Under the pieces are notes generated by a model. That model saw only the letters and a program-made list of their open reading frames with translations, had not been told where the DNA came from and made no database searches. Below, one piece after another: positions 3,400 through 24,045 of a DNA stretch of 64,000 bases. How positions within the stretch are numbered: position 1 is the first letter of the stretch; every line of letters starts with the position of its first letter. The translations under genes were made by a program, and so were the position numbers. The stretch covers positions 248,001 through 312,000 of the forward strand of contig SHZU01000002.1 of the NCBI GenBank assembly GCA_009692115.1, written 5' to 3'. This DNA comes from Gemmatimonadota bacterium (GTDB lineage Bacteria > Gemmatimonadota > Gemmatimonadetes > Gemmatimonadales > GWC2-71-9).

Positions 3400-3468
3400 G
3401 GGAGCTCGTTGAAGGGAATGGTCAGCAAAGGTGGTTCGGGTTTGACCGCAGTGCAACCGGGAGCGACG

Positions 3469-6779: not shown

Positions 6780-7637
6780 TCAAATCGTCGGCAAAACCAT
6801 TCGAACATGGTCGGCAAACGCGCTGACGAGTGCCGCCGGCTGGTCGCTCTCGAATTTCAACGCAATGCTCACACTGGGCAACGAGGGTAGGCCGCTATCC
6901 AGGGGCAGAATGTGCAGATCGGCTGGCACCGCCGTCTGGGTCAGCACCGCAATCGCTTGGCCGGATCTCACCACCGCCGTCAGGCCGGCCACACTGCCGC
7001 TGGCGAAGGCGACCCGGTAGGCTATTCCCGCCCGCTCGAGGCACTTCCGGGCGGCCTGATGGTCGATCGCGTCGCGGTCTCCCAGGGCCAGTTGCAGCGG
7101 CTTCTGGCTCACGGCATTGGATCCGATGGAGCCCACCCACACCAACGGTTCGCGGCGAATGATGGCTTCGCCTTTCTCGTCTTCCGGAAAGGACGTCAGG
7201 GCCAGATCCAATGCATGGGTCTTCAGTCGTTCGAGGAGCCGCGGCGTGGAGGCGCAAAACACCTCCACCATGACCTGCGGGTGCCGCCGCGCAAAACCGC
7301 GGAGCAAGTGGGGCAGGAACACCGCCGCATAGTCGTCCGGACACCCGAAACGGATCGTCCCGGACAAACCCTTGCCGGATAGTTCTGCCATGGCTTCGTC
7401 GTGGTAGCGCAGGATTCGCTGGGCGTGAACTAGGAGTCGCTCGCCCTGGGTGGTCAGGATGACGCCGCGTCCGGTTCGGTTCAGTAAGGACTGACCGACG
7501 ATCTGTTCCAACCGTTTCACCTGCATGCTGATGGCGGCTTGGGTCCGTCCCACCCGGGGAGCGGCCCGGCTGAGTGCCCGGGTCTCCGCGATCACGGTGA
7601 AGGTCCTGAGCAGCTCAATTTCCAGATGAGCCGTCAC
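6780..7637 (-). CDS. LysR-type transcriptional regulator
   Basis: A 285-residue protein with an N-terminal winged helix-turn-helix (residues about 5-65; 'ALSRAAPRVGRTQAAISMQV' is the recognition region) and a periplasmic-binding-protein-like effector domain. The start overlaps the stop of the enoyl-CoA hydratase gene by 4 bp, making it the last gene of the leftward mutase operon. LysR regulators are more often divergent from their targets; a distal position implies autoregulation within the operon. The candidate targets are the paired dyads at 15409-15434 and 15480-15505, eight kilobases upstream at the operon promoter. The ligand is presumably an acid or acyl-CoA of this pathway (inference). 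Confidence 0.9.
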   Translation of the reverse strand: MTAHLEIELLRTFTVIAETRALSRAAPRVGRTQAAISMQVKRLEQIVGQSLLNRTGRGVILTTQGERLLVHAQRILRYHDEAMAELSGKGLSGTIRFGCPDDYAAVFLPHLLRGFARRHPQVMVEVFCASTPRLLERLKTHALDLALTSFPEDEKGEAIIRREPLVWVGSIGSNAVSQKPLQLALGDRDAIDHQAARKCLERAGIAYRVAFASGSVAGLTAVVRSGQAIAVLTQTAVPADLHILPLDSGLPSLPSVSIALKFESDQPAALVSAFADHVRMVLPTI

Positions 7638-8410
7638 GGTGCCAGTCTTTCCGCCACCCGCCGAGCGCTCTCCGGATCCAGGAAACCCTGAACCGTTGCG
7701 GATGCCTCGGCAGCCATGACCTCTTCCAGGCTGGACGACGGCGCCAGCGCCAGGATCCGCTTCAGGTCCGCGACGCGCTGCGCGGGTAACTCTGCAAGGC
7801 GCCGGGCCAAGGTGATCGCCTCAGATCGCAACTGGGCTTCCGGGACGACCTTCCAGAGCAGTCCCCATTCCAGCGCTTGGGCGGCGTCGAATCGTTCGCC
7901 AAAGTAGATCAGTTCACGGGTCTTCTGGGGGCCGATCAACCGTGGAAGCAACGCGGTAACGGCGCCGGTGACGAACAGGCCCAGCTTCACTTCCGGGAAG
8001 AAAAAGCGAGTGCCTTCGGCCGCGATCGCAAAGTCGCAGTTGATGACCCACTCCAATCCGGCCCCGACCGCCCAGCCGTGAATCGCACCGATGACCGGCT
8101 TCTGGCCAAGGACGATGGCGCGGGTGACGTCCTGAATCCGGTCGACGAAGCCGGGGAGCGCCGTATCGCCGGCCAACTGCGACTCGAACTCCTTCAGGTC
8201 GTCACCGGAGCAGAACGCCCGGCCAGCCCCAGTCAGGACGATGGCACGGATCTGGTCATCCTGGTTGGCCCGATTGAGCTCCCGGGTGAGGTCTAGGACC
8301 AACTCCGGCGTGACGGCGTTGAGCCGAGCGGGGCGATTCAGGGTGACGACGCGAACGCCGTCGAACGGGTCGTCGGTGAGTACGGTACTGCCAGTGCGGT
8401 GAACCACCAT
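7634..8410 (-). CDS. Enoyl-CoA hydratase/isomerase family protein
   Basis: A 258-residue crotonase-fold enzyme. ATG 8410 is chosen because it follows an excellent Shine-Dalgarno (GAGGAGG); the longer open frame would overlap the upstream CocE gene. Family features: oxyanion-hole segments 'GAGRAFCSGDDLK' and 'GWAVGAGLEW', and the later 'FPEVKLGLF' with a conserved Glu. Crotonases hydrate enoyl-CoA or isomerise double bonds. In this operon it could interconvert crotonyl-CoA and 3-hydroxybutyryl-CoA made by the mutase, which is inference. It is 10 bp from the CocE gene and overlaps the LysR gene by 4 bp. Confidence 0.88.
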   Translation of the reverse strand: MVVHRTGSTVLTDDPFDGVRVVTLNRPARLNAVTPELVLDLTRELNRANQDDQIRAIVLTGAGRAFCSGDDLKEFESQLAGDTALPGFVDRIQDVTRAIVLGQKPVIGAIHGWAVGAGLEWVINCDFAIAAEGTRFFFPEVKLGLFVTGAVTALLPRLIGPQKTRELIYFGERFDAAQALEWGLLWKVVPEAQLRSEAITLARRLAELPAQRVADLKRILALAPSSSLEEVMAAEASATVQGFLDPESARRVAERLAP

Positions 8411-8420
8411 CCGACCTCCT

Positions 8421-10331
8421 CTAGTGCACGACGGGTAACCACACGGCGGTCGGCTGGGCCTTGGAGCGGAGAATCGTGATTTCCGCCTTCCGGTAGTCCG
8501 CCGGCTTGGCAAAGAAGATGTTCGGCACGAAAGTCTGCGGATTGCGGTCATACAACGGGAACAGGGTCGACTGGATCTGCACCATGATCCGATGCCCGGG
8601 CTTGAAGACGTGGTTCACGTTGGGCAAGTCGAATCGATAGCGCTGCGCCGTATTGGCCGGGATGGCGGTCGGATTCGAAAAGCTTTCCCGGTACCGGCCC
8701 CGGAAAATGTCCATGGAAATTGGCAGCTGATATCCGCCCAGCTGAGGTTGGGCGGGCATTTGGGCCGGGTAGACATCGATCAGCTTGACGACGAAGTCGC
8801 CGTCGCTGCCCGTGGTCATCGCGCGGATATCGGCCACCGGAATGCCTTGGACCCGGACCGGCTCGGTCAGCACCGCCGTCTCATACGCCAGCACATCGGG
8901 ACGGCCGTCCACGAAGCGCTGGTCTTGCACCAGCCATTTGCTCCAGGGGTCATAGGAGGAGCCCAGCGTTTCCGATGTCATGCTGCCAAAGGGATCGCGC
9001 ACCGGCCGGGGCATGAAGGGGACGGGTTTCGCGGGATCGCTGATGTACGGATCGCCGCCGTCCGAGACGGTGGGCTGCTCGAAGGACAAACTGAAGCCGG
9101 TAGTGGTGTATAACGGCGTCATCCCGCCGGCGCAGCCGCGCTCACACACGGTGGGCCAACTCTCAAACCGTTCCCACCGGTCCTCCCCCGTGTTGAACAC
9201 CGTCACCGGCGCCAGCTTGGCCGGAGGCCCGCCGCGGAGGTGCTCGTCGAAGAAGGGCATCAGGATGTCGCGGCGATATTGGATTGCGGTGTTGCCGTTC
9301 CAGCGGAACGGGCCGAGGGCCCAACCGTCGCCGTGGACCTGGATGTGATTCCACGGGCCCAGCACCAGCCAATTGTTGGCCTGGCGACCGGCCGCCTTCA
9401 GGGCCAGCCATGCGTGATTGGCGCCCCACATGTCTTCTTGATCCCAGAGACCCTGCGTCCAGAGCGTGGCGACTGCTCTCGGCGCTCGGGCAACGAGCAG
9501 CTTGTCGAGCGCCTGACTCTCCCAGTACTCGTCGTAGGCCGGATGGGCCATGGTGCGGACCACCCAGGGTAGCTGCTCGAGGCCGTGGACCCGCGCATAG
9601 TCACCGGTCGAGCCCACCCGCAACAGTTCATCATACTTGTCGTAACTGTCGCTCAGCGTCACCGCGCCCGCGCCGCGCTGCCCGGTCTGCATCTGGATAT
9701 AGCCGAGCATGAGGTTACGAAAGGCCCCGTAGTGAAACCAATCATCCCCCATCCACGCATCGACCACCGGACCCTGCGGTACCACGGCCTTGAGCGCCGG
9801 ATGCGGCTCGAGAAGGGCCATAACGGCCGTAAACCCGTCGTAGGACCCGCCGATCATACCCACGTGGCCATTCGTTTCCGGGGTGTTCTTCACCAACCAG
9901 TCAATGGTGTCCCAAGCGTCGGTCGCGTGGTCCACGGACGTGGGATTCGACGGCCCGCGCGGGGGACGGGTCATCACGTAGTCGCCTTCGGATCCGTATT
10001 TGCCGCGGACATCTTGGTGGACCCGGATGTAGCCCGCCTGCACGAGGTAGTCAGGGGTGGCCGAGGCCTCGTAGGGCGTCCGCTCCAATACGATGGCGGC
10101 ATTCTTGGCGCCCTTGGGGATCATGATGATCGTGTGGAGCTTCACCCCGTCGCGCATCGGAATCAAGACGATCCGCTTGGCGTAGGCCAGATCGGGAACC
10201 TTGTTCTTGAAGGCCTTGGGGACATCGTTGAAGGTCTGGCTCACTGCCGCGCGCGCCGGTGTCGCCACCGCGCTGAGGCCGGCGGCCGCGACGAGGCCCA
10301 GGGCGAAGGATCGGATGTGCTGCGGGCTCAT
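8421..10331 (-). CDS. CocE/NonD family hydrolase, secreted
   Basis: A 636-residue protein with a signal peptide ending near 'ATPARA'. It has an Xaa-Pro dipeptidyl-peptidase-type alpha/beta-hydrolase domain with nucleophile Ser163 in 'GGSYDGF', followed by the C-terminal jelly-roll typical of CocE/X-Pro peptidases. Known members cleave cocaine esters, glutaryl amides or acyl-amino bonds. It lies 16 bp after meaB and 10 bp before the enoyl-CoA hydratase gene, inside the CoA operon. It may therefore release the acid substrate of the pathway from an ester or amide outside the cytoplasm. The two other CocE genes in this window (28981 and 30714) are paralogues in a different operon. Confidence 0.88.
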   Translation of the reverse strand: MSPQHIRSFALGLVAAAGLSAVATPARAAVSQTFNDVPKAFKNKVPDLAYAKRIVLIPMRDGVKLHTIIMIPKGAKNAAIVLERTPYEASATPDYLVQAGYIRVHQDVRGKYGSEGDYVMTRPPRGPSNPTSVDHATDAWDTIDWLVKNTPETNGHVGMIGGSYDGFTAVMALLEPHPALKAVVPQGPVVDAWMGDDWFHYGAFRNLMLGYIQMQTGQRGAGAVTLSDSYDKYDELLRVGSTGDYARVHGLEQLPWVVRTMAHPAYDEYWESQALDKLLVARAPRAVATLWTQGLWDQEDMWGANHAWLALKAAGRQANNWLVLGPWNHIQVHGDGWALGPFRWNGNTAIQYRRDILMPFFDEHLRGGPPAKLAPVTVFNTGEDRWERFESWPTVCERGCAGGMTPLYTTTGFSLSFEQPTVSDGGDPYISDPAKPVPFMPRPVRDPFGSMTSETLGSSYDPWSKWLVQDQRFVDGRPDVLAYETAVLTEPVRVQGIPVADIRAMTTGSDGDFVVKLIDVYPAQMPAQPQLGGYQLPISMDIFRGRYRESFSNPTAIPANTAQRYRFDLPNVNHVFKPGHRIMVQIQSTLFPLYDRNPQTFVPNIFFAKPADYRKAEITILRSKAQPTAVWLPVVH

Positions 10332-10347: not shown

Positions 10348-11289
10348 TCAGGTGACCTTCAGTAGTGCCTCGACCGCTTCGTATGGATCACAGGTCTTGT
10401 CCACGACTTGCAGCACCGCGTCGTCCAGCTGCTGCGTGCCCAACCGAAGCGCCAAATCCCGGAGGACCCGCTCCTGGAGGAGGATCTGGATTTCATTCCG
10501 CATCGCGTCCGCATGGCGCCGGCGCGCCTCGCCACTCTCCGCGGCCCAGGCCCGATGCTTGTCGATCGCGGCCATCAGGTCCTCGATGCCGGTTCCGTCC
10601 TTCGCCGAGGTCTTGACCACGGGTGGCTTCCACGCGAGCCGTGAGGCACCGAGGGTCAGCATCTGCGTCAGGTCCCTGACGGTCTCGTCCGCGCCGGGCC
10701 GATCGGCTTTGTTGACCACCAAGACATCGGCAATTTCCATGATGCCGGCTTTGATCGCCTGGATGTCGTCGCCCGCGCCTGGAATCGTCAGCAGGCAGAC
10801 GGTATCAACGACCCGTGACACCTCGATCTCCTGCTGTCCAACCCCGACGGTCTCGACCAAGACGACATCGAAACCCAGCGCATCGAGCAGGCCGACGACT
10901 CGCTTCGTTGCCCGCGCCAGGCCTCCGGATGTGCCCCGGTTCGCCATGCTCCGAATGAACACACCCGCATCCAGGTAGCGATCCCGCATCCGGATCCGAT
11001 CGCCGAGAATGGCGCCGCCGGTGTACGGGCTCGACGGATCCACGGCCACGACCGCGACGCGCTCAGCCGTTTGTCGGTACCCCGCCGTCATCGCCGAGAC
11101 GAGGGTACTCTTTCCGGTCCCAGGAGGCCCGGTGAACCCGACCACGATGGCGCGGCCCGTTTGCGCGTAGGTCGCCCGGATGATGTCGGCCGCTTCGGGC
11201 TCCTCGTTCTCGACGATGGACAGGAGCCTCGCGATATACGCGATCCGGCCCTGCCGGGCGCCCTCGAGCAGCTGCCCGACGTCGTTCAT
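10348..11289 (-). CDS. meaB: MeaB-like GTPase chaperone of the B12 acyl-CoA mutase
   Basis: A 313-residue SIMIBI-class GTPase with Walker A 'GPPGTGKS' at residues 54-61, 'VDPSSP', 'ETVGVGQ' and the base-specificity motif 'NKAD'. MeaB/ArgK/MMAA proteins gate adenosylcobalamin loading and protect the mutase from inactivation. Its presence in the same operon as the split mutase supports adenosylcobalamin dependence. The start overlaps the end of the hotdog gene by 4 bp (ATGA), so the two are likely translationally coupled. The family assignment is firm; which mutase it serves is inferred from position. Confidence 0.94.
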   Translation of the reverse strand: MNDVGQLLEGARQGRIAYIARLLSIVENEEPEAADIIRATYAQTGRAIVVGFTGPPGTGKSTLVSAMTAGYRQTAERVAVVAVDPSSPYTGGAILGDRIRMRDRYLDAGVFIRSMANRGTSGGLARATKRVVGLLDALGFDVVLVETVGVGQQEIEVSRVVDTVCLLTIPGAGDDIQAIKAGIMEIADVLVVNKADRPGADETVRDLTQMLTLGASRLAWKPPVVKTSAKDGTGIEDLMAAIDKHRAWAAESGEARRRHADAMRNEIQILLQERVLRDLALRLGTQQLDDAVLQVVDKTCDPYEAVEALLKVT

Positions 11290-11681
11290 CGCCTAACCAC
11301 GCGCTGCCTGCCAGCGGGCACCACGGCGATGGCGGTGGCCTTGACCACCAGCGCCGGCTCTGCCAGCACGTTGGCGGCTGAATCGGACGGGTCGGCCAAT
11401 TCGATGATCTTGTAGGCGGTGCACTCAAAGGTCCGCGAGGTGGTGCCGACCGCCCGAAGCGTGGCCCGGACTTCGAGGTAGTCCCCGCTCCGCACGGGGA
11501 CGAGAAACTCGCTCTGCATCGCGCGCATCAGCCCTTCGTCGCCATCGTGCCGAATGAGCACCTCCGTCACTGCGTCTCCGAACAGCTGAAGAATGCGCGC
11601 GCCATCCACCAAGCCACCGGCATAGTGACCGTCGGCCGTGGACATCCGGAGCCGAATCAGACTCTCCATTGGAGCACTCAT
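11286..11681 (-). CDS. Hotdog-fold protein resembling 3-aminobutyryl-CoA ammonia-lyase (Kal)
   Basis: A 131-residue single-hotdog protein starting at ATG 11681, one base after the ligase stop. It carries 'LIRLRMS...HYAGGLVDG', 'LFGD', 'IRHDGDEGL', 'VGTTSR' and 'SDSAANVL', which match my memory of Kal from lysine-fermenting clostridia and fusobacteria better than generic thioesterases. Kal removes ammonia from 3-aminobutyryl-CoA to give crotonyl-CoA. Between a ligase and meaB in a mutase operon it could act on 3-amino- or 3-hydroxybutyryl-CoA, or serve as a CoA thioesterase (for example for formyl-CoA). The precise reaction is not readable from sequence. Confidence 0.75.
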   Translation of the reverse strand: MSAPMESLIRLRMSTADGHYAGGLVDGARILQLFGDAVTEVLIRHDGDEGLMRAMQSEFLVPVRSGDYLEVRATLRAVGTTSRTFECTAYKIIELADPSDSAANVLAEPALVVKATAIAVVPAGRQRVVRR

Positions 11682-11682
11682 G

Positions 11683-13206
11683 TTAGGCCGACCTCGAAGC
11701 GAAGACCTGATCCCGGAGCTGGCGCCGGGCAATCTTGCCGATCCCCGTCCTCGGTAGGTCCGGCATGATATGAATCACTTTGGGGCGCTTGTAGCCGGCG
11801 AGTCGCTCGTGGCAAAACGACATCAACTCGACCGCGAGCGTGGTGGCGCCTGGCGACAGCGTCACGAACGCGTGAACCGCCTCGCCCCACCGGTCGTCGG
11901 GAACCCCGACCACGGCCGCCTCGCTCACGTGCGGATGGGTCAACAGCACGTTCTCGATCTCGGTCGGAATGACCGTGATGCCGCCAGTCTTGATCATCTC
12001 TTTGATCCGGCCCTCGAGGATCAGGAACCCCTCCTCGTCAAACCGACCGATATCACCGGTTCGCATCCCGCCCCCTCGCATGACCTGCGCCGTGGCCGAC
12101 TTGTCCTGCCAATAGCCGGCAAACAAGGTCGGGCTCTCGGCGACGATCTCGCCGGATTCCTGCGGCCCCGGCACGCCGCCATCCGGGGTGAGCAGATAGA
12201 GTCGAGCACCGGTCATGGGGCGGCCCACGGTGCCGATCTTTCGGATCTGATCGGACGGGCTCATGACCGTGAGGCAGAGGTGTTCCATCATGCCGTAGAA
12301 CTGAACGAATGCGACGCCGGGCATCCGCTCGATCAAGGCGGCAATCAGCGGTGCCGGCATCGTTTCCGACGCATAAGAAATCGTCCGCAGCGATGGCGGG
12401 ATGGCGGTTGGAGCGACCTCCAGGAGGCGGCGAAGGGTCGTCGGCACCGCGTCGAAGTGAGTGACCTCCCAGATCCGGGTGGCCTCCCATACGGCGGGTG
12501 CGTTGAACTCCGGTAGGATGATATGGGTCGCGCGCACCAGCGTCAGCGGAATCAGGTGCTCCATGCACGACGAGAACAGCGGGAGGAAATGGAGCGTGCG
12601 TTCGCCGTCCCGGAGGCTGAGCTCGAGGCCCATGGTCAGGGCCGCCGCCAGCAGGCTCCCGTGCGTATGCACCGCCCCTTTGGAGCGTCCGGTCGAGCCC
12701 GAGGTAAAGAAAACGACGGCGGGATCAGCTGGAACGACCGGCGTCAGCGAATCGAGCGGCGTCGCCCGGGCCAAGTGGGTCGGGTAGGTATCTTCGAGAG
12801 AAAGCACGCAGTTAACGCCGGCGGCCTCGAGTGCGGTCCCGCACCCCTTGATCGCGGCGGCCTGGGATGGCCCGACGATCAGGACCTTCGGACGAATCTG
12901 CTCGAGCGCGACCAACGCGTCATTCCAGGTCCACCAGTGATCCAGCGGCGAGGTGATCGCGCCTAACATCGGAACCCCGAATAGCACCTCCACGAACTCC
13001 GGCCGGTTCGGGGCCCAATAGGCGACCCGGTCGCCCTTCTCGACGCCGAGCGTCGTCAGCGCCCCCGCCAGGCGGCGGGCCCGATCGTAGACCTCGGCGT
13101 AGCTCCACGCGGTACCGCCGTAGATTACCGCGTCGCGGCTCGGTTCGGACAGCGCCGCGCGCGCCAGCAGGGCATCCAGCCGCGGCGCGCTACCGCGTTC
13201 CGCCAT
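11683..13206 (-). CDS. Acyl-CoA synthetase (AMP-dependent ligase, ANL superfamily)
   Basis: An adenylate-forming ligase of 507 residues from ATG 13206; an alternative ATG at 13227 would overlap the upstream gene by 19 bp. Motifs: 'FFTSGSTGRSKG' P-loop, 'YGMMEHLC' A5 region, 'RTGDIG' with 'LEGRIKEMIKTGG' A8 hinge, and C-terminal catalytic Lys in 'RTGIGKI'. It should activate a carboxylic acid with ATP and CoA. In the known 2-hydroxyisobutyrate pathway a ligase of this class sits beside the mutase and makes 2-hydroxyisobutyryl-CoA. That substrate is my inference here. Gaps to neighbours are 2 and 1 bp. Confidence 0.88.
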   Translation of the reverse strand: MAERGSAPRLDALLARAALSEPSRDAVIYGGTAWSYAEVYDRARRLAGALTTLGVEKGDRVAYWAPNRPEFVEVLFGVPMLGAITSPLDHWWTWNDALVALEQIRPKVLIVGPSQAAAIKGCGTALEAAGVNCVLSLEDTYPTHLARATPLDSLTPVVPADPAVVFFTSGSTGRSKGAVHTHGSLLAAALTMGLELSLRDGERTLHFLPLFSSCMEHLIPLTLVRATHIILPEFNAPAVWEATRIWEVTHFDAVPTTLRRLLEVAPTAIPPSLRTISYASETMPAPLIAALIERMPGVAFVQFYGMMEHLCLTVMSPSDQIRKIGTVGRPMTGARLYLLTPDGGVPGPQESGEIVAESPTLFAGYWQDKSATAQVMRGGGMRTGDIGRFDEEGFLILEGRIKEMIKTGGITVIPTEIENVLLTHPHVSEAAVVGVPDDRWGEAVHAFVTLSPGATTLAVELMSFCHERLAGYKRPKVIHIMPDLPRTGIGKIARRQLRDQVFASRSA

Positions 13207-13208
13207 CC

Positions 13209-13610
13209 TCACCGGCTGGCCTGCCACTGCCGAACGTATTCGACGATCTTGGCCGTCGGGGTGCCCGGGCCGAACACCTCGGCCACGCCAAACGCCTTGA
13301 CCTTCGGAATGTCGGGTGGCGGAAGGATCCCGCCCATCACGACCAGCACGTCCTTGACCGCCTGGGCGCGAATGGCGCGACAGATCTCGTCGGCGAAGTG
13401 CAAGTGGGCTCCCGACAGGATGCTTAAGCCCAGCACGTCAGCGTCCTCTTCCACCACCGTGCGGGTGATCATCTCGGCGGTCTGGAAGATTCCGGTATAG
13501 ATCACTTCCATGCCGGCGTCACGGAAGGCTCGGGCAATGATCTTCGCGCCCCGGTCATGCCCATCGAGTCCCGGCTTTGCCACCACGACACGTAACGGCT
13601 GTTGCTTCAT
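13209..13610 (-). CDS. B12-dependent acyl-CoA mutase, small (cobalamin-binding) subunit
   Basis: A 133-residue stand-alone cobalamin-binding domain. The lower-axial-ligand motif D-x-H-x-x-G is at residues 16-21 ('DGHDRG'), followed by 'SILSG' and 'VMGG', the other two B12-loop motifs. Single-chain methylmalonyl-CoA mutases carry this domain at their C-terminus. A separate small subunit with a ~560-residue large subunit is the architecture of isobutyryl-CoA and 2-hydroxyisobutyryl-CoA mutases. It is 24 bp downstream of the large-subunit gene and 2 bp before the ligase gene, so all three should be co-expressed. Confidence 0.94.
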   Translation of the reverse strand: MKQQPLRVVVAKPGLDGHDRGAKIIARAFRDAGMEVIYTGIFQTAEMITRTVVEEDADVLGLSILSGAHLHFADEICRAIRAQAVKDVLVVMGGILPPPDIPKVKAFGVAEVFGPGTPTAKIVEYVRQWQASR

Positions 13611-13634: not shown

Positions 13635-15326
13635 TTAGTAGACGATGGGCCCGCGATAGGTACCGAACACCTCGCGGAGTACATCGCACATCTCTCCCAC
13701 GGTGGCTTGCGCTTTCACGGCCCGCGCCACGGCCGGCATCACGTTGTCGCCGGACGTGGCGGCCTGCTTGATGTCCTTAAGCGCGCTCGTCGTTTCGGCT
13801 TGGCCGCGCGAGCGCCGGATGCCCTGGGTCCGCTTGATCTGCCGTTCGCCGAGCCCCGGGTCGAGTTCGAACGGGTCGAACGGCAGCGCCTCCTCGGGGT
13901 CAATATGGACGTTCATCCCGACCATGAACTCCTTCTGGGTCTCCAAATCGTGCTGGAAAGCCGCCGCGGAGTCGGCAATGTGCCGTTGGATGAAGCCGTC
14001 CTCGATCGACTGGACCATGCCGCCGCGATCCAGGACCTGCCGAATCAACGCCTCGGCCTCTTCCTCGAGGCGGTTCGTCAGGTTCTCGACGTAGTAGGAG
14101 CCACCCAGCGGATCGACGACGTCGGCCACCCGGGTCTCGAGCGCCAGGATCTGTTGGGTGCGCACCGCGATCTTGATCGCGCCCTCGGAGGGAATCTGAA
14201 ACGCCTCGTCCTTCGAGTTGGTGTGGAGCGACTGCGTCCCGCCGAGGATCGCCGCGAGCGCTTGGATCGCGGTCCGCGCGATGTTGTTGTCCGGCTGCTG
14301 CGCGGTCAGGCTGACCCCAGAGGTCTGACAATGGGCCCGCATCATCCAGGATCTCGGATCCTTGGTGCCGACCCAGTCCCGCATGATCCGCGCCCACAGC
14401 CGGCGCGATGCCCGGAGCTTGCAGATCTCCTCGAAGAAATCGTTCTGGATGTTCCAGAAAAACGAAATCCGCGGCGCCACCGCATCCGCCGATAGGCCGC
14501 GTGTCACGGCCTCGGTCACGTAGCAATGCCCCGCGGCGAGCGTGAAGGCGAGCTCCTGTACCGCGTTGGCGCCCGCATCGCGGATGTGATAGCCCGAGAC
14601 GCTCACCGGGTTGTAGCGCGGCATCGTCTTGGCCGCATACTCCATCGTGTCGACGACCAGGCGCACCGCCTGGGCCGGCGGGTAGATGTACTCGTTTTGG
14701 GCGGTGTACTCCTTCAGAATATCGTTCTGACAGGTGCCGGTGATCTTCTCCTTCGCCACGCCTTGCTCTTGGCAGACCTGCTGATACATGCCGATCAGGA
14801 CGAACGCCGAGGCATTGACTGTGTACGAGGTCGACACCTCGTCCAGCGGAATGTCCGCCATCAGCAACCGAACATCGTCGATCGTGTCCACGGCCACGCC
14901 GATCTTGCCGATTTCAGGCACCGCAATCGGATGATCGGAGTCGTAGCCCAGTAGCGTCGGCAGATCGAAGTCGGTCGACAATCCCGTCTCGCCGTGGGCG
15001 AGCAGGTACTTGTATCGCCCGTTGGTGTCTTCCGCGGTCCCGAACCCCGCCACTTGGCGGAGCGTCCACGGGCGGGCGCGGTGCATCGTGGCGTGCACGC
15101 CGCGGGTAAACGGGTACTCACCGGGAAGACCGATCACCTTGGCGGCATCGCCGCTCGGGACATCGGCGGCCGTGTAGACATCGTCAATCGGAAGGCCCGA
15201 AAGCGTCGTGAACGCTTCCTTCCGCTTCGGCAGCCGGTCGAGACTCGCGGCGAGGGTGGTGCGCTTCCAGGTCGCGGCATCGGTCGATGCCTCACCGTGC
15301 GACTTCGGCTCGGGCGGTTGGCTCAT
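13635..15326 (-). CDS. B12-dependent acyl-CoA mutase, large subunit; 2-hydroxyisobutyryl-CoA mutase-like
   Basis: A 563-residue TIM-barrel subunit lacking the B12 domain. ATG 15326 follows a GAGGAG ribosome site. Aligned by eye to Propionibacterium methylmalonyl-CoA mutase, Tyr89 is replaced by Val92 ('RQVAGF'), Ala116 by Asp119 ('GLSTDFDLP') and Arg207 by Gln210 ('AQNEYIYPP'), while His244 is kept as His247. Methylmalonyl-CoA mutase needs the Tyr/Arg pair; isobutyryl-CoA mutase has Phe/Gln; 2-hydroxyisobutyryl-CoA mutase of Aquincola has Ile/Asp/Gln. Val/Asp/Gln therefore points to a 2-hydroxyacyl-CoA mutase. It is the first gene of the operon, downstream of a mirrored promoter and dyad. Simple automated annotation would probably call it methylmalonyl-CoA mutase. 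Confidence 0.88.
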   Translation of the reverse strand: MSQPPEPKSHGEASTDAATWKRTTLAASLDRLPKRKEAFTTLSGLPIDDVYTAADVPSGDAAKVIGLPGEYPFTRGVHATMHRARPWTLRQVAGFGTAEDTNGRYKYLLAHGETGLSTDFDLPTLLGYDSDHPIAVPEIGKIGVAVDTIDDVRLLMADIPLDEVSTSYTVNASAFVLIGMYQQVCQEQGVAKEKITGTCQNDILKEYTAQNEYIYPPAQAVRLVVDTMEYAAKTMPRYNPVSVSGYHIRDAGANAVQELAFTLAAGHCYVTEAVTRGLSADAVAPRISFFWNIQNDFFEEICKLRASRRLWARIMRDWVGTKDPRSWMMRAHCQTSGVSLTAQQPDNNIARTAIQALAAILGGTQSLHTNSKDEAFQIPSEGAIKIAVRTQQILALETRVADVVDPLGGSYYVENLTNRLEEEAEALIRQVLDRGGMVQSIEDGFIQRHIADSAAAFQHDLETQKEFMVGMNVHIDPEEALPFDPFELDPGLGERQIKRTQGIRRSRGQAETTSALKDIKQAATSGDNVMPAVARAVKAQATVGEMCDVLREVFGTYRGPIVY

Positions 15327-15373
15327 GTCACGCTCCTCTTCTCCCAAAACGGGGGTCGGACGGCAACTCGGGT

Positions 15374-15402
15374 AAGGTAGCGAAAGGGGTCGACAGGATC
15401 AA
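15374..15402 (-). promoter_or_regulatory. Promoter of the mutase operon
   Basis: Read leftward: -35 TTGATC (15402-15397), a 17-bp spacer and -10 TACCTT (15379-15374). The -10 is 47 bp upstream of the mutase start. Its mirror-image partner has identical -35 and spacing, which supports function despite the weak -10. Confidence 0.65.
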
Positions 15403-15408
15403 ATGCTA

Positions 15409-15434
15409 CTAATACCTCTTATGAGAGGCATTAG
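15409..15434. promoter_or_regulatory. Operator dyad 1 (mutase-operon side)
   Basis: A 26-bp near-perfect palindrome of form CTAAT-N16-ATTAG with inner CCTCT...AGAGG, centred between 15421 and 15422. It lies 6 bp upstream of the leftward -35 element, a position suited to an activator. The binding protein is unknown; the LysR at 6780 is the only regulator in the linked operon. Confidence 0.8.
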
Positions 15435-15479
15435 AAAGTGTTGTACGTCGGTTCTCAGGGTGAGCGGATGTCAGCGCGT

Positions 15480-15505
15480 CTAATGCTTCACATAAGAGCT
15501 ATTAG
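15480..15505. promoter_or_regulatory. Operator dyad 2 (lyase side)
   Basis: A second 26-bp CTAAT-N16-ATTAG dyad, less symmetric inside than dyad 1, centred between 15492 and 15493. It lies 6 bp upstream of the rightward -35 element, mirroring dyad 1. Confidence 0.8.
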
Positions 15506-15511
15506 TAGCAT

Positions 15512-15540
15512 TTGATCCTACCGCCTGGTTTCGCTAGCTT
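15512..15540 (+). promoter_or_regulatory. Promoter of the ThDP lyase gene
   Basis: Read rightward: -35 TTGATC (15512-15517), a 17-bp spacer and -10 TAGCTT (15535-15540), 41 bp before the start codon. Exact mirror position of the leftward promoter. The poor -10 suggests dependence on an activator. Confidence 0.65.
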
Positions 15541-15581
15541 GTCCGCGGTGCCGCTCAGACCCACCGCTGTCGGAGGTTCTC

Positions 15582-17309
15582 ATGTCTGCTCGACCTGCGA
15601 CGGTCGCTGCGACGATAGCCCGCTTCATCGCAGGACAAGGCGTCGGCCGGGTCTACACGTTGCCCGGCTCGCATGTGAAGCCGATCTGCAGTGAGTTGGC
15701 CCGGCTTGGAATTCGCATCGTCTCGGCGCGACACGAATGCGCCGCGGTCCACATGGCGCACGCTGAAGCAGACCTCACCGGACGAATCGGGATCGCTTTG
15801 GTGACGGCCGGACCGGGCCTTACCAATGCCGTCACGGGAATCGCGAGCGCCTATCTGTCGCGGACGCCGCTCCTGGTCATGTCGGCGCGGGTACCCGATC
15901 CGCAGGCGGGCATGGGAGCCCTCGAGGAGGTTCCGCAGGCTGACCTCGTACGTCCGGTGTGCCGTTACGTTCGGGAAATCTCCGAGGCGCGTCACGTACT
16001 GCCCGGCCTGCACATGGCCGCGACGATCGCGTTGGGCAGCGACGGACCACCGGGACCCGGGTACGTCGACTTCGCCCCGAACCTCCTCGCGCAGGAGATG
16101 CCGGACTGGTATCTCGACCGGCATTGGTTCATGCCGGTGGTCCGCCCTGCCCGCTTGCCTCACCATGATAGCATCGCGCTTGCCGCGCAACTTCTTCGCA
16201 GTAGTCGGCGGCCGCTCGCAATCGGCGGCCGGGGAGCGCTGGGAGCTGGAGCGGTGTTAGAGAGGTTCCTGCAGGCCTCCGGGTGCCTGTATTTGGACAC
16301 CAGAGAGAGCCGCGGTGTGGTCCCTCCGGACAACCCTCACGCCGTACCCGCGCTGCGGGCCCGCGCGATGGCCGAAGCGGACTTGGTGATTACCCTTGGC
16401 AGACGCCTGGATTTCGAGCTCGCCTACGGCTCGGGTGCTGTCTTCTCCGAATCCGCGCGCTTCATTCGAATCGGTCGCAGTGCGGAGGAGCTGTCTGAGA
16501 ACCGATGTGGCGACGTCGCCGTCTGCGCCGACGTGGACCGAGCCCTGGAGGCTCTCGCGAATTCCGGCGCTAGACCGGCGGAGGCCGATACGGCCTGGAA
16601 GGATGAGCTTATCGCTGCGAACGTCGAGAAGACGCGCATCAAGACGCCGAGCCTGACCACGCGGCCGCCGGGCGCCGACGGGCGGATGCATCCGCTGACG
16701 CTCATCGAGGCGATCAACCGAATCATTGACAGCGACACGATCTGCATCGTGGACGGCGGAGACATCCTGTCGTTCGCTCGGATTGGGCTTCGGACGTGGA
16801 CCTATCTTGACCTGGGGCCGTTTGGATGTCTGGGGTCAGGGGTACCGTACGCCGTGGCTTCCGCTCTGGCGTTCCCTTCTCGGAGGACCATTGCCCTGAT
16901 CGGCGACGGGGCATTCGGGTTTGGCGCGATGGAAGTCGAAACCGCAGTACGCACGAGCGCTCGGGCGCTCTTCGTGGTCGCGAACAACGACGCCTGGAAC
17001 ATCGAACGCCAAGATCAACTGATGAAGTATCCGGACCAGGATCTCGGGACTGAGCTATCGCCGTGCCGCTACGATCTGCTCGCCAGGTCGCTGGGGGCCC
17101 ACGGGGAGCGCGTGGAGCGGGCCGTGGACCTGGCGGACGCGCTCGAGCGAGGCCTTGCCAACCTGCCGGCGGTCATCGATGTCGCGGTGACCCGCGATGC
17201 CGTGTCACCCGATACGAGGAGTGGACTGGCAAACGTCCCGCCGCTTCACGCAACCCAGTCCTGGGACGACGCGGAGCGACGGATGTTGGAGCGGCCTCCG
17301 CTCGGATGA
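15582..17309 (+). CDS. ThDP-dependent enzyme, probable 2-hydroxyacyl-CoA lyase
   Basis: A 575-residue protein of the acetolactate synthase/oxalyl-CoA decarboxylase/HACL superfamily, starting at ATG 15582 after GGAGG. Glu52 ('HE') is the cofactor-activating glutamate. The ThDP motif begins 'GDGAFGFG' and ends 'NND'. Ile474-Glu475 in 'AWNIERQDQ' corresponds in position and context to Ile492-Glu493 of the Actinomycetospora lyase, where Glu493 is the catalytic acid/base. A C-terminal extension of about 35 residues recalls that enzyme's lid. The known lyase cleaves 2-hydroxyisobutyryl-CoA to acetone and formyl-CoA. Mirrored promoters tie it to the mutase operon. Alternatives are a glyoxylate carboligase or acetolactate synthase-like enzyme; no regulatory-subunit gene is adjacent. 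Confidence 0.72.
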   Translation: MSARPATVAATIARFIAGQGVGRVYTLPGSHVKPICSELARLGIRIVSARHECAAVHMAHAEADLTGRIGIALVTAGPGLTNAVTGIASAYLSRTPLLVMSARVPDPQAGMGALEEVPQADLVRPVCRYVREISEARHVLPGLHMAATIALGSDGPPGPGYVDFAPNLLAQEMPDWYLDRHWFMPVVRPARLPHHDSIALAAQLLRSSRRPLAIGGRGALGAGAVLERFLQASGCLYLDTRESRGVVPPDNPHAVPALRARAMAEADLVITLGRRLDFELAYGSGAVFSESARFIRIGRSAEELSENRCGDVAVCADVDRALEALANSGARPAEADTAWKDELIAANVEKTRIKTPSLTTRPPGADGRMHPLTLIEAINRIIDSDTICIVDGGDILSFARIGLRTWTYLDLGPFGCLGSGVPYAVASALAFPSRRTIALIGDGAFGFGAMEVETAVRTSARALFVVANNDAWNIERQDQLMKYPDQDLGTELSPCRYDLLARSLGAHGERVERAVDLADALERGLANLPAVIDVAVTRDAVSPDTRSGLANVPPLHATQSWDDAERRMLERPPLG

Positions 17310-18240: not shown

Positions 18241-21200
18241 ATGCTACGTCACGTTGCGGGCTTCGAGCTGCGCTACCAGCTCAAGTCGCCGGCATTCTGG
18301 ATCACTAGCCTGATCTTCTTCCTGCTGACCTTCTCGCTTGTCGGGGCCGACAATCTCCAGATCGGGTGGGGCGGCCAAGTGGTCCGAAACTCGCCCTATA
18401 CGGTCGCGCTGGTCTCCTTCGTCATGGTGCTGTGGGCGATCTTCATCGTGACGGCCTTCGTGGCGAATGTCGTGGTGCGCGACGACGAGACCCAGTTCGG
18501 TCCGATCATCTACGCGACCCCGCTCTCGCGGTTCGACTACTTGTTCGGGCGCTTTACCGGTGCCTTCGGGGCCGGGTGCCTCGCGTTCCTGAGCGTGCCG
18601 CTCGGCATCATGATCAGCGCCGCGATGCCGTGGCTCGATCCCGAGACGGTCGGTCCCTTCCGGCTCGGCGACTACCTGTACGTGTACTTCGTCCTCTGCG
18701 TGCCGACGCTATTCATCATGAGCGCGGGTCTCTTTGCTTTGGCAACGGCGGCGCGTTCGATGTTCGCCACCTACATCGGGGCGCTCGTCGTCATCATGCT
18801 CTACCTCGTGACGGTGATTTACTTCCGGCGAGCTGAGTATGCTTCCACGGCCGCGTTGCTCGATCCGTTCGGTCTGTCGGCCCTGCGCGCGGTGACCCGG
18901 AACTGGACCCCGAGCGAGCGGAACGTGCTGTTGCCGCCGATGCAGGGGGCGATGCTCCAGAACCGCGCGTTCTGGCTCGCCGTGAGTTTTGCCCTGCTCG
19001 GGTTCGCGTGGCGGGTGTTTCGCCCGGAGCGCCGATGGCTGGCCAAGGGGCGCAAGGTGGACCGCGGGGCGCAGGGCGTCGGGCCGGCGGTTGCGCCGGC
19101 GCGCCGGCTTCCCGCCGGACCGTCTTCGCATCGCGACTTGGGTTGGGGGCCCCTCGCCGCGTTGACCCGATTCGACATGCTGACCGCACTTCGGAGCCCC
19201 GCCTACGTGATCATGCTCGGCATCGCGTTCATCAACGCGATCGTCGGGTTGTGGCTGGCCGGCGATGACTCGGTGAGCACGATCTTCCCGGTCACCCGCG
19301 TCATGATTCAGACCCTCATCGAGCAGTTTACGGTCATCCCGCTGGTTATCGCCGCCTACTACGCTGGTGAACTCGTCTGGCGCGACCGTGAGCTACGGGT
19401 GCACGAGATCGTCGACGCGACGCCGGCGTCGGATGTGGCGTTCTTCGTGCCGAAGATCCTCGCAATCGCGATCGTGCTGTTCTCGACGGCGCTCATCAGC
19501 GTCGCCGCCGCGGTCTCGGTCCAGGCGCTCAAGGGCTACACCACGTTCGAATTCAGCCACTACCTCATGTGGTATGTGCTGCCGTGGCTCGTCAACATGG
19601 TGCTCTACGCCGTGCTCGCGGTGTTCGTCCAGACCCTCGTGCCGCACAAGTTCGTGGGTCTCTTGGTCATGCTGCTCTTCATCGTCGCGCAGCTGACGCT
19701 CGCGGGGCTCGGTTTCGAGCATAACCTCTACCGTTATGGCTCGACCCCGCCGGTGCCGCTCTCGGACATGAACGGCCAGGGCCCGTTCGCCGGGTATGCC
19801 GCCTGGTTCCACGCGTACTGGACGGCGGGCGCCACGGTCCTCGCCGTACTCGCCTACGCGCTGTGGCGACGGGGCGTGTCTGCGCCACTGCTCGTCCGCC
19901 TGAAGGGTGTCCCGGCCCGGCTGGCCGGGCCGGCGGGGTGGATCATGACCACCGCCGCCGTCGTCATGGCGGCCCTCGGCGGGTTCATTTACTACAACAC
20001 CAACATCGTCAACGAGTATCGGACCTTCCTCGACAGTGAGCGGTGGCTCGCGGCGCACGAGAAGGCGCGAGCCGCCTTTGCATCCGCACCGCAGCCGCGG
20101 ATCACGGACGTGACCCTCGCGATCGACATCTTTCCAGAGGAGCCCAGGGTCGTCACCCGCGGCACCTACGTCATCGAGAACCGCACGGACTCGGCATTGA
20201 GCCAGGTGCACGTGTCATGGCCGCACGCGCTCGAGGTGAAGTCATTCATCGGCCCGATCGACGTGGGCGCGCTCCAGATGCGCTCGCTCGAGGTCACCGG
20301 CGCCCGCCTGACGCGCGAGCTGCCGGATATGAACTACCGGATCTATACGTTCGACGTACCCCTCGCACCCGGCAAGCGGCGCGAGATCCGCTTTGAGACC
20401 GTCCGCGAGCAGCACGGGTTCCGCAACTCGAACAACGAGACCCGGGTCGTCGCGAACGGGACCTTCCTCGATAACCTGCAGATCACGCCCTCGCTCGGGG
20501 TGGACCGCCAGTATCGGATCAGCGGTCGCTCCAAGCGCCGCAAGTACGGGCTGCCGGATGATCTCGGACCGGCGAAGCTCGAGGATGAAGGCGCCCGGGG
20601 ATTCCATTACCTCAGGCGCGACAGCGACTGGGTCAACGCCGACCTGACAGTGTCCACGGTCGCGGATCAAACGATCCTGGCGCCCGGCTACTTGGTCGAC
20701 ACCAAGGTCGCTGACGGCCGGCGGGTCGCGCACTTTCGCACCGAGGCGCCGATCCACAACTTTTTCTCGATCCAGTCGGCCGCGTACGCGGTCCGCGAGG
20801 ATCGCTGGAAGGACGTGGCGCTCGCGGTCTACCATCATCCTGCGCACGCCTACAACGTCGAGGGCATGATCGCCCTCATGAAGGAATCGCTGGACTACTT
20901 CTCGGAGAATTTCAGCCCGTTCCAGTTCCGGCAGCTCCGGGTCGTCGAGTTCCCAGCCTACCGCAATTTCGCCCAGTCGTTCCCGGGTACCATCGCGCAC
21001 TCGGAGGCCGCCGGCTTCATCTTCGACACGTCGAGACCGGAGAACGCGGACTTGGTCACCTACATCACCGCGCATGAAACCGCCCACCAGTGGTGGTTTC
21101 ACCAGGTCGTGAGCGCCGATATGCAGGGCATGACGGTGCTCTCGGAGACACTCGCGCAGTACTCGGCGCTCATGATCATGGAGCGGCTCTATGGGCCGGA

Positions 21201-21879
21201 GAACATCCGCAGATTTCTCAAACGGTCGCTCGACGGCTATTTGAACGGCCGGGGTAGCGAGGCGGTCGAGGAGTTGCCGCTCCAGCGCGTCAACGGCCAG
21301 AGCCAGGCGTACATCGGGTACCAGAAGGGGGCGCTGGTCATGTACCTGCTCAAGGACCAGATCGGCGAGGCGGCGGTCAACCGCGCGCTGCAGGCTCTGC
21401 TCCGTGACTTTGCGTTCAAGGGCCCGCCGTATCCACGGTCGCTCGAACTGGTGAGTCGCCTGCGGGCCGAGGCGGGGCCCGAGCATCAGCAGCTCATCAC
21501 GGACCTGTTTGAGAAGATCACGCTCTACGATCTCAAGGTCGCCAGCGCGCGTTCCAGCCAGCGGCCGGATGGCAAGTGGAACGTGGAGATTGAGGTCGAG
21601 GCCCGGAAGCTCTACGCGGACGGCAAGGGCGTCGAGACCGAGGCCGTTCTCGACGAAGCCTTCGACATTGGAGTATTCGCGGCCGAGCCGGGCACGACGG
21701 GCTACACCAAGGCGAGCGTCTTGTCGGTGGAACGAGGGCGCGTGCGCAGCGGTCGGCAGACGCTCACCGTCGTCGTCGATCAGGAGCCCAAGTTCGCGGG
21801 GGTCGACCCCTACAACAAGTACGTGGACCGCCATCCCAGCGACAACGTGGCGAGGGTGGAGAGTGCCGTGGTGCCTTAG
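18241..21879 (+). CDS. ABC transporter permease fused to M1-family metallopeptidase
   Basis: A 1212-residue two-part protein. Roughly residues 1-590 contain two sets of transmembrane helices of the ABC-2 permease type. The remainder is periplasmic and ends in an M1 aminopeptidase-like domain with zinc motif H945-E-T-A-H949 and a third ligand Glu969. The gap between HExxH and this Glu is 19 residues rather than the usual 18, because of an extra Trp in 'HQWWF'. The fusion is a known but poorly characterised architecture in several phyla. Role is unknown; the peptidase may process peptides exported or sensed by the permease. It is co-oriented with its ATPase (9-bp gap). Confidence 0.9.
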   Translation: MLRHVAGFELRYQLKSPAFWITSLIFFLLTFSLVGADNLQIGWGGQVVRNSPYTVALVSFVMVLWAIFIVTAFVANVVVRDDETQFGPIIYATPLSRFDYLFGRFTGAFGAGCLAFLSVPLGIMISAAMPWLDPETVGPFRLGDYLYVYFVLCVPTLFIMSAGLFALATAARSMFATYIGALVVIMLYLVTVIYFRRAEYASTAALLDPFGLSALRAVTRNWTPSERNVLLPPMQGAMLQNRAFWLAVSFALLGFAWRVFRPERRWLAKGRKVDRGAQGVGPAVAPARRLPAGPSSHRDLGWGPLAALTRFDMLTALRSPAYVIMLGIAFINAIVGLWLAGDDSVSTIFPVTRVMIQTLIEQFTVIPLVIAAYYAGELVWRDRELRVHEIVDATPASDVAFFVPKILAIAIVLFSTALISVAAAVSVQALKGYTTFEFSHYLMWYVLPWLVNMVLYAVLAVFVQTLVPHKFVGLLVMLLFIVAQLTLAGLGFEHNLYRYGSTPPVPLSDMNGQGPFAGYAAWFHAYWTAGATVLAVLAYALWRRGVSAPLLVRLKGVPARLAGPAGWIMTTAAVVMAALGGFIYYNTNIVNEYRTFLDSERWLAAHEKARAAFASAPQPRITDVTLAIDIFPEEPRVVTRGTYVIENRTDSALSQVHVSWPHALEVKSFIGPIDVGALQMRSLEVTGARLTRELPDMNYRIYTFDVPLAPGKRREIRFETVREQHGFRNSNNETRVVANGTFLDNLQITPSLGVDRQYRISGRSKRRKYGLPDDLGPAKLEDEGARGFHYLRRDSDWVNADLTVSTVADQTILAPGYLVDTKVADGRRVAHFRTEAPIHNFFSIQSAAYAVREDRWKDVALAVYHHPAHAYNVEGMIALMKESLDYFSENFSPFQFRQLRVVEFPAYRNFAQSFPGTIAHSEAAGFIFDTSRPENADLVTYITAHETAHQWWFHQVVSADMQGMTVLSETLAQYSALMIMERLYGPENIRRFLKRSLDGYLNGRGSEAVEELPLQRVNGQSQAYIGYQKGALVMYLLKDQIGEAAVNRALQALLRDFAFKGPPYPRSLELVSRLRAEAGPEHQQLITDLFEKITLYDLKVASARSSQRPDGKWNVEIEVEARKLYADGKGVETEAVLDEAFDIGVFAAEPGTTGYTKASVLSVERGRVRSGRQTLTVVVDQEPKFAGVDPYNKYVDRHPSDNVARVESAVVP

Positions 21880-23120
21880 GGCATCCGGCCGTACTTCTTG
21901 AGCGCCGCCACCACCCGGTCCCCCGGCAGTCCGTAGAGCCGGATCCCGTCCGCCCCCGTCATCGTCTCCGATGCGAGCATCGCGTTCACGACCGCCTCTT
22001 CAGTTGCGTCGATCGTGGATTGGAAGAATCCGTCGATCCGATCGTTCTCGAGCATCTTGATCGTCGCGATCGGGGCGATCCCGCCGGCGTAGCCCGCGGC
22101 CCTTGCGTCCTCCCGATTGGCGGTCGAGAACGCGAGAAATAAGTCGCCCGACCCGTTGGCGGCCCAACTCCCCAACCGGCCCAGCCCCATGCCCACCCGC
22201 CGAGCGACCCGCTCCAGCTGATGCGGCAGGAGCGGCGCGTCGGTCGCCACCACGACGATGATCGAGCCTCGGCCTAACGGTCCGTCGGCGGGCTCGTCAC
22301 CGGCCCCACGCCCATCGCCACCCCCACCCCCGTCGCACCGGCGGATGCCCCGGGTCCACGGCCGGCTCAACGGTCCGTCCAGCACCGTGCAGATCCGGAG
22401 GTCGGTGATCTCCCGGCCTACCGGCGCCCCGAGGATGTGGAGGTCGCCGGCGAAGTTGCACTGGACCAGGACGCCTAGCGTGAAACTCGTGGCCGAATCG
22501 ACCTGGACCACCCGGGACGAGGTCCCGATGCCGCCCTTGAAGCCGTTGCACCCCATCCCGGTCCCGCCCCCTACCGCCCCTTCGACCACCCGACCGGTCC
22601 GGGCGCTGTCGAGGGCCGCCCACGCGTGCTCAGGCTTGACGTGCTCGCCGTTGGCGTCGTTGAGGAAATCGAAGGTCTCCGCCACCAGCGGATAGGTGAA
22701 CAGGAGCTCGCGGCCCCGGGCCAGTTGCCATTGAATCGCGGCGTCCCGGACGGTGCCGACACTGTGGGTCCCGGTGATCAGGATCGGGCCCTCGAGGAAG
22801 CCCGATTCCTTGACCCAATTGGTCCCGGTCATGTCGCCGTTGCCGTTCTGGTTGAAGGTCGCCGCCATCACGAAGTCCCAGTCGCCGCGGGGCCGAGGAA
22901 GGATCGCGGTCACCCCGGTGCGGACCGGCCCTTGGTGGGGGATCAACTTGCCCGAGCCCCGAATGATGGTGGCGTGTCCGACCGCGACGCCGGGTACGTC
23001 GGTGATCGCGTTGGCGGGACCAGGGCGCCCGGGGAAGGGAATGCCGAGGTCGCGACCACGAGGCCGGGACTGGGCGGCGAGGGGAGCGACAAGCACCGTG
23101 AGCAGGAGGAGGAATCTCAT
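21876..23120 (-). CDS. P1 family peptidase (DmpA/S58-type), secreted
   Basis: A 414-residue protein starting at ATG 23120 with signal peptide ending 'APLAAQ'; the longer open frame upstream is out of register with the MBL gene and rejected. The DmpA-type autoprocessing site 'KGGIGTSSR' places the nucleophile at about Ser201. Such enzymes self-cleave into two chains and act as L-aminopeptidase/D-esterases or beta-peptidyl aminopeptidases. A glycine/asparate-rich insert (around residues 265-285) precedes the second half and is unusual. It converges with the permease/M1 fusion, overlapping its stop by 4 bp. Confidence 0.88.
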   Translation of the reverse strand: MRFLLLLTVLVAPLAAQSRPRGRDLGIPFPGRPGPANAITDVPGVAVGHATIIRGSGKLIPHQGPVRTGVTAILPRPRGDWDFVMAATFNQNGNGDMTGTNWVKESGFLEGPILITGTHSVGTVRDAAIQWQLARGRELLFTYPLVAETFDFLNDANGEHVKPEHAWAALDSARTGRVVEGAVGGGTGMGCNGFKGGIGTSSRVVQVDSATSFTLGVLVQCNFAGDLHILGAPVGREITDLRICTVLDGPLSRPWTRGIRRCDGGGGGDGRGAGDEPADGPLGRGSIIVVVATDAPLLPHQLERVARRVGMGLGRLGSWAANGSGDLFLAFSTANREDARAAGYAGGIAPIATIKMLENDRIDGFFQSTIDATEEAVVNAMLASETMTGADGIRLYGLPGDRVVAALKKYGRMP

Positions 23121-23136
23121 GGGGGTCCTTTCGGCG

Positions 23137-24045
23137 TTACAATTCGAGCTTCTTCTTCCAGTACCAGGCCAGGCCGTGGTAGCTGGCTCGAAACCCGGAG
23201 AACTCCCGGGCGGCCTGGACGGCCGCTGGGTCGGCCTTGCCGGCCAGCCAGTGGGTGACGTGTTCATCGAACCGGTCAGCCCGGACCTCGTCGGGTAGAT
23301 CTTCCATGAGCAGACGGCGGGCTGCTTCAGTCCACTCATGGAGGCCTCGCCGGAGGTCGGCGAACTGGGTCGGGGGATCTTCGTGAAAGCCGTAGTGGGT
23401 GCTGAAGAGCCGACGAGGTGCCCAGGCCTCAATCCGGTCGATGCTCGCGAGCCAGTCATCGAGGTGAAAGTCGGGTGGCGGGGTGACCGGCATGGTGGCC
23501 GGCAGCTGCGGTAATCGGATCCCGCCACAGTCGCCGACATAGGCTGTGCGGTCGGCCACATCGTAGTACGCCACGTGATGCACGGCATGCCCCGGGGTAT
23601 GGAGGACATCGAACCGCCGGTTCCCCACTCGAATGGTCTCGCCGCCCACCAGGGGGCGGACTTGAGCCGCCGGCACCGGTAAGAACGGGCCCCACAACCG
23701 GTCCATGTCGGCGCCAAAGACGCGGGTGGCGCTGGCCACCAATTTGGCCGGACTGATGAGGTGTTTGGCCCCGAGTTCGTGGACATAGACCACGAGGTTG
23801 GGGTTTTGGTCCACCAGGAGCCCGGTGGCGCCGGCGTGATCGAAGTGAATGTGCGTGAGCAGAATGGCGTGGAGATCTTGGATTCGGACGCCGAGGCGGC
23901 CGAGTTCCGCGGTCAGGGTCTCGAGGGTTGATCCGGGCCCGGTATCGAGAAGAACGGGGCCGGCGTCGGTGGCCAAGAGCTGGGAGGCGACGTACGTTTC
24001 TCGCCCAAGGTGGCGGACGTCGATCGTGGTGTCAGTGAGGGTCAT
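23137..24045 (-). CDS. MBL-fold metallo-hydrolase
   Basis: A 302-residue metallo-beta-lactamase-fold protein with the metal motif 'THIHFDHAG', a later 'HTPGHAVHHV', Asp in 'GDCGG' and His in 'STHYG'. No signal peptide, so probably cytoplasmic. Typical activities include thioester (glyoxalase II-like) and lactone hydrolysis; the substrate is not assignable. It is 16 bp upstream of the P1 peptidase gene in the same direction and 26 bp from the divergent SDR gene. Confidence 0.9.
   Translation of the reverse strand: MTLTDTTIDVRHLGRETYVASQLLATDAGPVLLDTGPGSTLETLTAELGRLGVRIQDLHAILLTHIHFDHAGATGLLVDQNPNLVVYVHELGAKHLISPAKLVASATRVFGADMDRLWGPFLPVPAAQVRPLVGGETIRVGNRRFDVLHTPGHAVHHVAYYDVADRTAYVGDCGGIRLPQLPATMPVTPPPDFHLDDWLASIDRIEAWAPRRLFSTHYGFHEDPPTQFADLRRGLHEWTEAARRLLMEDLPDEVRADRFDEHVTHWLAGKADPAAVQAAREFSGFRASYHGLAWYWKKKLEL

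Follow-up and report, generated by a model that had tools for sequence, protein, structure and literature searches.

Results

Two mirrored operator-promoter modules separate a mutase operon from a lyase gene

What controls the two gene sets that diverge from positions 15374–15540 of the window (the whole 64,000-nucleotide stretch of DNA analyzed here, from a bacterium of the phylum Gemmatimonadota), and through which regulator? Our reading, to which we give a probability of roughly 0.8, is that this stretch is a divergent control region composed of two complete, inverted operator-promoter modules of the DgdR-type LysR regulator encoded at 6780–7637.

The two modules face outward, with a mutase operon on one side and a TPP-lyase gene on the other. 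Outward from its dyad, each consists of a 6-bp linker, TTGATC, a 17-bp spacer, and TASCTT. Operator 1, the 26-bp dyad CTAATACCTCTTATGAGAGGCATTAG (15409–15434, minus strand), is assigned to the mutase operon and turns its conserved half (ATAAGAGGTATTAG on the minus strand) toward the −35 element; operator 2, the 26-bp dyad CTAATGCTTCACATAAGAGCTATTAG (15480–15505, plus strand), is assigned to the lyase gene and turns ATAAGAGCTATTAG in the same manner. A 45-bp inter-operator spacer (15435–15479, no strand assigned) places the dyad centres 71 bp apart. The leftward promoter comprises a −35-like TTGATC (15397–15402, minus strand; GATCAA on the plus strand), which is the same element in the same place in the related genome G069 and TTGATT in G092, and a −10-like TACCTT (15374–15379, minus strand) that aligns with TAGCTT in G069. 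The rightward promoter comprises a −35-like TTGATC (15512–15517, plus strand), recognized from sequence and comparison with relatives, and a −10-like TAGCTT (15535–15540, plus strand), recognized from sequence and alignment.

A sequence-only reading of this DNA had reported twin 26-bp dyads, each 6 bp from TTGATC-N17-TASCTT, in mirror arrangement, and all of these elements are present as described. Its count of 38 matches in 41 positions between the arms became 37/41 when we counted from the dyad edge, or 38/42 if the T at 15479 that flanks the dyad is counted too. In total, 15361–15435 and 15479–15553 form the arms of an inverted repeat that is 81% complementary over 75 nt. Through the end of the −10 element the arms agree at 51/61 positions (best of 60 dinucleotide shuffles of the region: 34/61), the matches by element being 23/26 (dyad), 6/6 (linker), 6/6 (−35), 11/17 (spacer), and 5/6 (−10). 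Symmetry differs between the dyads, and the left one is the better palindrome. Upon alignment of the sites from this genome and its relatives, we noted that they are directional: the better conserved half, ATAAGAGnTATTAG, always adjoins the −35. With up to three mismatches allowed, 0.03 occurrences of the dyad pattern are expected per window and two were found; the search elsewhere in the genome that the sequence-only reading had proposed returned no further copy in 3.12 Mb at this threshold.

Both dyads lie upstream of the inferred promoters, with centres at approximately −54 relative to inferred starts at ~15367 (minus strand) and ~15547 (plus strand). The promoter hexamers are weak (TTGATC 4/6, TASCTT 3/6), and a plain sigma-70 scan called no promoter at either module, as expected if an activator is needed; these elements are therefore putative promoters, called from geometry and conservation only. 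A terminator scan found nothing.

Gene content on the two sides

The leftward series consists of eight tightly packed genes on the minus strand, from the mutase to the LysR gene, with gaps of −19 to +24 nt. They encode a B12-dependent acyl-CoA mutase large subunit (13635–15326, the ATG at 15326 being the more likely start), the small, B12-binding mutase subunit (13209–13610), an AMP-forming acyl-CoA ligase (11683–13227), a hot-dog protein resembling beta-alanyl-CoA/3-aminobutyryl-CoA ammonia lyases (11286–11681, the ORF possibly starting at 11732), a MeaB-type GTPase as mutase chaperone (10348–11289), an S15/CocE-NonD family hydrolase (8421–10331), an enoyl-CoA hydratase of the crotonase type (7634–8411, start uncertain, the ORF opening at 8551), and lastly the LysR regulator (6780–7637), whose gene overlaps that of the hydratase by 4 nt. 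The rightward gene (15582–17309, plus strand) encodes a TPP enzyme whose closest solved relative is 7pt1, an actinobacterial lyase.

The best solved relative of the mutase large subunit is the 2-hydroxyisobutyryl-CoA mutase 4r3u (8.5e-172, compared to 1.5e-135 for the best methylmalonyl-CoA mutase), and the protein is thus closer to HcmA than to methylmalonyl-CoA mutase. At the positions of Ile90 and Asp117, which we take to be active-site residues of 2-hydroxyisobutyryl-CoA mutase, the Asp is present (STDFD) and the Ile is replaced by Val (RQVAGF).

The TPP enzyme passes the NCBIfam equivalog model for 2-hydroxyacyl-CoA lyases of the AcHACL type (672 bits, cut-off 600), AcHACL being the Actinomycetospora lyase (PMC7176365). 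It retains the catalytic Glu493 (NIER motif) but differs from AcHACL in having Glu for the active-site Gln128 and Pro for Gln41, hence its substrate is uncertain. Among 395 genomes of the phylum no close ortholog of this enzyme was found (best match 34%), so the second module is not common to the relatives seen. On this result we rejected the idea that the lyase is a partner throughout the family.

The hot-dog protein scores 140.7 bits against the curated 3-aminobutyryl-CoA ammonia lyase model NF052388 (cut-off 160) and is not a member by this measure; its only solved relative is the beta-alanyl-CoA:ammonia lyase 4mtu (6e-17). Orthologs occur in 3 of the 395 genomes, all three of which carry this LysR and have the gene inside the series mutase-ligase-ammonia lyase-MeaB. 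Separately, the 2-hydroxyisobutyrate cluster descriptions consulted contain no mention of such a gene (11286–11732 here, within a B12-mutase operon).

The operator accompanies one LysR subfamily in two phyla

The LysR subfamily is present in 7 of 288 genomes of the order, and the protein encoded here is 65–82% identical to LysR proteins beside dgdA or an S15 gene in Gemmatimonadota. In G089, G091, G093, and G141, the LysR ortholog is divergent from dgdA, the gene for 2,2-dialkylglycine decarboxylase (the G089 protein matches 1d7r at 3e-216), with the site in between; in G089 and G093 the dyad lies within ~20 bp of the LysR start codon. G069, from the same family as the genome studied here, has the module dyad-6-TTGATC-17-TAGCTT upstream of the orthologous mutase operon (mutase 88% identical) and a second module between an S15 gene and the LysR ortholog (82% identical). 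A degenerate module precedes the mutase ortholog of G089, the LysR ortholog of G090 is divergent from an S15 gene with a poorer site, and G092 has a dyad between dgdA and a LysR remnant. The strict operator plus −35 pattern was found in 3 of the 288 genomes, each with this LysR gene or its remnant. The sequence-only reading had made its proposal depend on dyads being kept at homologous loci; they are conserved there, and the idea survived.

Two further observations concern these relatives. Read by eye, the remnant in G092 (L004, 1500–1760) consists of N- and C-terminal LysR parts joined by an internal deletion, next to an intact dgdA and operator. In G069, the start of contig C161 (L173, 1–600) and the end of C101 (L175) match at 95% over 596 nt within the S15 gene, which reflects either a second copy or an effect of the assembly.

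A scan of named genomes returned 80 LysR relatives, mostly from Burkholderia, Paraburkholderia, Caballeronia, and Pseudomonas at 61–70% identity, and nearly all are divergent from dgdA. The regulator beside dgdA is named DgdR. A matrix built solely from nine Gemmatimonadota sites was applied to 75 held-out loci from outside this phylum. In 69 of the 75, the best 26-mer of the whole ~9-kb locus fell in the dgdR-dgdA intergenic region (taken as 140 bp in front of the LysR gene), on the strand that faces dgdA. The conserved operator half reads ATAAGA.CTATT.G; in three of the loci, which come from other betaproteobacteria, the outer dyad CTRAT-N16-ATYAG is kept around a different centre. In neither phylum does the dyad conserve the canonical LysR box, T-N11-A. 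We also noted that the proteobacterial dgdR-dgdA regions (L084–L160) have a −10-like TAGACT ~5 bp nearer the operator than in Gemmatimonadota, so that promoter geometry is not identical to that seen here, and that a −35-like TTG is missing from the equivalent position. A search of open literature for DgdR binding sites gave nothing relevant.

Collectively, these results are strong evidence, of a comparative kind, for binding of the 26-bp site by this LysR subfamily, and the twin sites very probably bind one DgdR-family regulator. The proposal of the sequence-only reading that the LysR at 6780 serves both sides gains support, since orthologs of this protein adjoin the same operator in other genomes. 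As in a DgdR-type regulon, the regulator is orthologous to the LysR beside dgdA, and the operator, upstream of the target promoter, agrees in sequence type and orientation; dgdA itself is not a target here, its place being taken by the mutase operon and the lyase gene. Nor is this a classical LysR control region, which would have a T-N11-A box near −65 and an adjacent, divergent regulator gene: the site is centred near −54, and the regulator gene is the last of the operon. The classical divergent layout is seen in G069, G089, G090, G091, G093, and G141.

Predicted mode of regulation and alternative explanations

We propose that LysR, as a tetramer or a pair of dimers, would occupy each 26-bp site centred near −54. 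Its ligand would be an alpha,alpha-disubstituted substrate or a derivative thereof, with 2-aminoisobutyrate and 2-hydroxyisobutyrate as candidates. Ligand-bound LysR might then contact RNA polymerase at the weak TTGATC/TASCTT promoters and activate the leftward operon (mutase subunits, CoA ligase, ammonia-lyase-like protein, MeaB, S15 hydrolase, crotonase, and LysR), and the same regulator would also turn on the rightward lyase gene. As the last gene of the left operon, LysR would be subject to positive feedback if it is an activator. The −10 elements, spacers, and leaders differ, so equal spacing need not mean equal output to the two sides.

The same operators and regulator could instead serve a LysR that mainly represses both sides until the substrate relieves it. 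Own-gene repression is common among LysR regulators, and a protein bound to the dyad near the LysR start in G089 and G093 (~20 bp) would block the LysR promoter. Against this, the operators lie upstream of the −35 elements with their centres at about −54, a position typical for activation, and both promoters are weak, which together suggest activation; we regard predominant repression as unlikely.

It is less probable still that a different regulator binds the dyads and that the LysR gene is a mere neighbour. The LysR gene does lie 8 kb from the operators instead of adjoining them, and T-N11-A is absent from the dyad; both points also count against the DgdR assignment, as do the poor −10 hexamers with no sigma-70 call and the differing promoter geometry in Proteobacteria. 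However, the site adjoins this LysR subfamily in two phyla even where the targets differ (dgdA, an S15 gene, or the mutase operon).

The mirror symmetry raises a last alternative, that of a recent inverted duplication without a function of its own, in which one side only would be a working module. The left and right arms are 80% identical to each other, and to the module of the G069 mutase operon they are 79% (left) and 81% (right) identical. Each arm is thus as far from the other as from an ortholog in another genus, and the second module shows no sign of postdating the split from the genus of G069. Mismatches between the arms number 3/38 in the dyad, linker, and −35 and 12/37 beyond (Fisher p = 0.0098), and with mismatches concentrated outside these elements, constraint fits better than recent duplication. 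The homology does reach beyond the motif, both within the spacer and past the −10, but arms that differ from each other by as much as from the other-genus ortholog, with mismatches that avoid dyad, linker, and −35, make a recent non-functional duplication very improbable. The sequence-only reading had called the arrangement recent or strongly selected; recency is unsupported by the pairwise identities, and the distribution of mismatches favors constraint. We also noted that the linker is common to the arms within one genome (TAGCAT here, TATCGT in G069), which may reflect exchange within genomes.

Comparison with known systems

The DgdR-type control region proposed here shares with the dgdA-dgdR region of Burkholderia and Pseudomonas the LysR subfamily (~61–70% identical) and a related 26-bp site upstream of the target promoter. 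Whereas that region has one operator and one decarboxylase gene, here there are two inverted modules, one facing a B12-mutase operon and the other a lyase gene; the regulator gene ends the operon, and dgdA is absent. A single LysR regulator that has separate sites at two neighbouring divergent promoters is known from ThnR, the activator of tetralin genes, whose sites at PB and PC cooperate (PMC4834489). The same source describes repression of the own gene as common among LysR regulators (PMC4834489). The ThnR sites, however, are arranged differently at its two promoters, whereas the modules here are near-identical mirror copies; the dyad here, moreover, lacks a conserved T-N11-A.

Published degraders of 2-hydroxyisobutyrate rely on one of the two enzymes, mutase or lyase, plus a ligase (PMC7176365). 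The locus resembles the HcmAB/RcmAB mutase clusters of Aquincola and Kyrpidia in its mutase large subunit closest to 4r3u, its ligase, and MeaB. Unlike in these clusters, the mutase and lyase alternatives stand under one control region, and the operon adds the beta-aminoacyl-CoA ammonia-lyase-like protein, a crotonase, and an S15 hydrolase.

A candidate B12-dependent route

The two gene sets that this regulator very probably controls would serve the breakdown of branched, hard-to-digest acids or amino acids. The genome keeps a DgdR-type regulator although dgdA is absent; no dgdA ortholog was found in it, the best aminotransferase being 37% identical. With an ammonia-lyase-like gene beside those for the mutase, the ligase, and the crotonase, all under a regulator of the dialkylglycine type, the locus suggests a route through 2-aminoisobutyryl-CoA. 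In this scheme, the ligase would convert 2-aminoisobutyrate to 2-aminoisobutyryl-CoA, the mutase would yield 3-aminobutyryl-CoA, the hot-dog ammonia lyase would form crotonyl-CoA, and the crotonase would produce 3-hydroxybutyryl-CoA; the TPP lyase, which the mirrored second module would place under the same signal, might cleave this CoA ester or a related one. 2-Hydroxyisobutyrate is also a possible substrate, mainly in view of the lyase and of the mutase's closest relative.

We tentatively suggest, at somewhat less than even odds, that control by the DgdR-type regulator has shifted from the 2-aminoisobutyrate decarboxylase to a B12-dependent route not described before, with a TPP lyase under the same signal. 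The switch itself is of a known type, and the genes that it would control hint at an undescribed vitamin-B12 route. The findings suggest that a DgdR-type regulator was transferred from one degradation gene to another pathway, with a full operator-promoter module on either side, and the operon points to a testable vitamin-B12 route for 2-aminoisobutyrate, the residue to which fungal peptaibol antibiotics owe their resistance to degradation. A predicted DgdR operator that spans two phyla also makes the regulon searchable.

Lastly, peptidase-family genes (S9, S15, M1-like, and S58) surround or lie within the operon, at 3409–5538, 8421–10331, 18241–21879, and 21876–23786, and in G069 an 804-aa ORF upstream of the hydratase gene appears penicillin-acylase-like by eye. 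These genes possibly release the substrate from peptides or amides.
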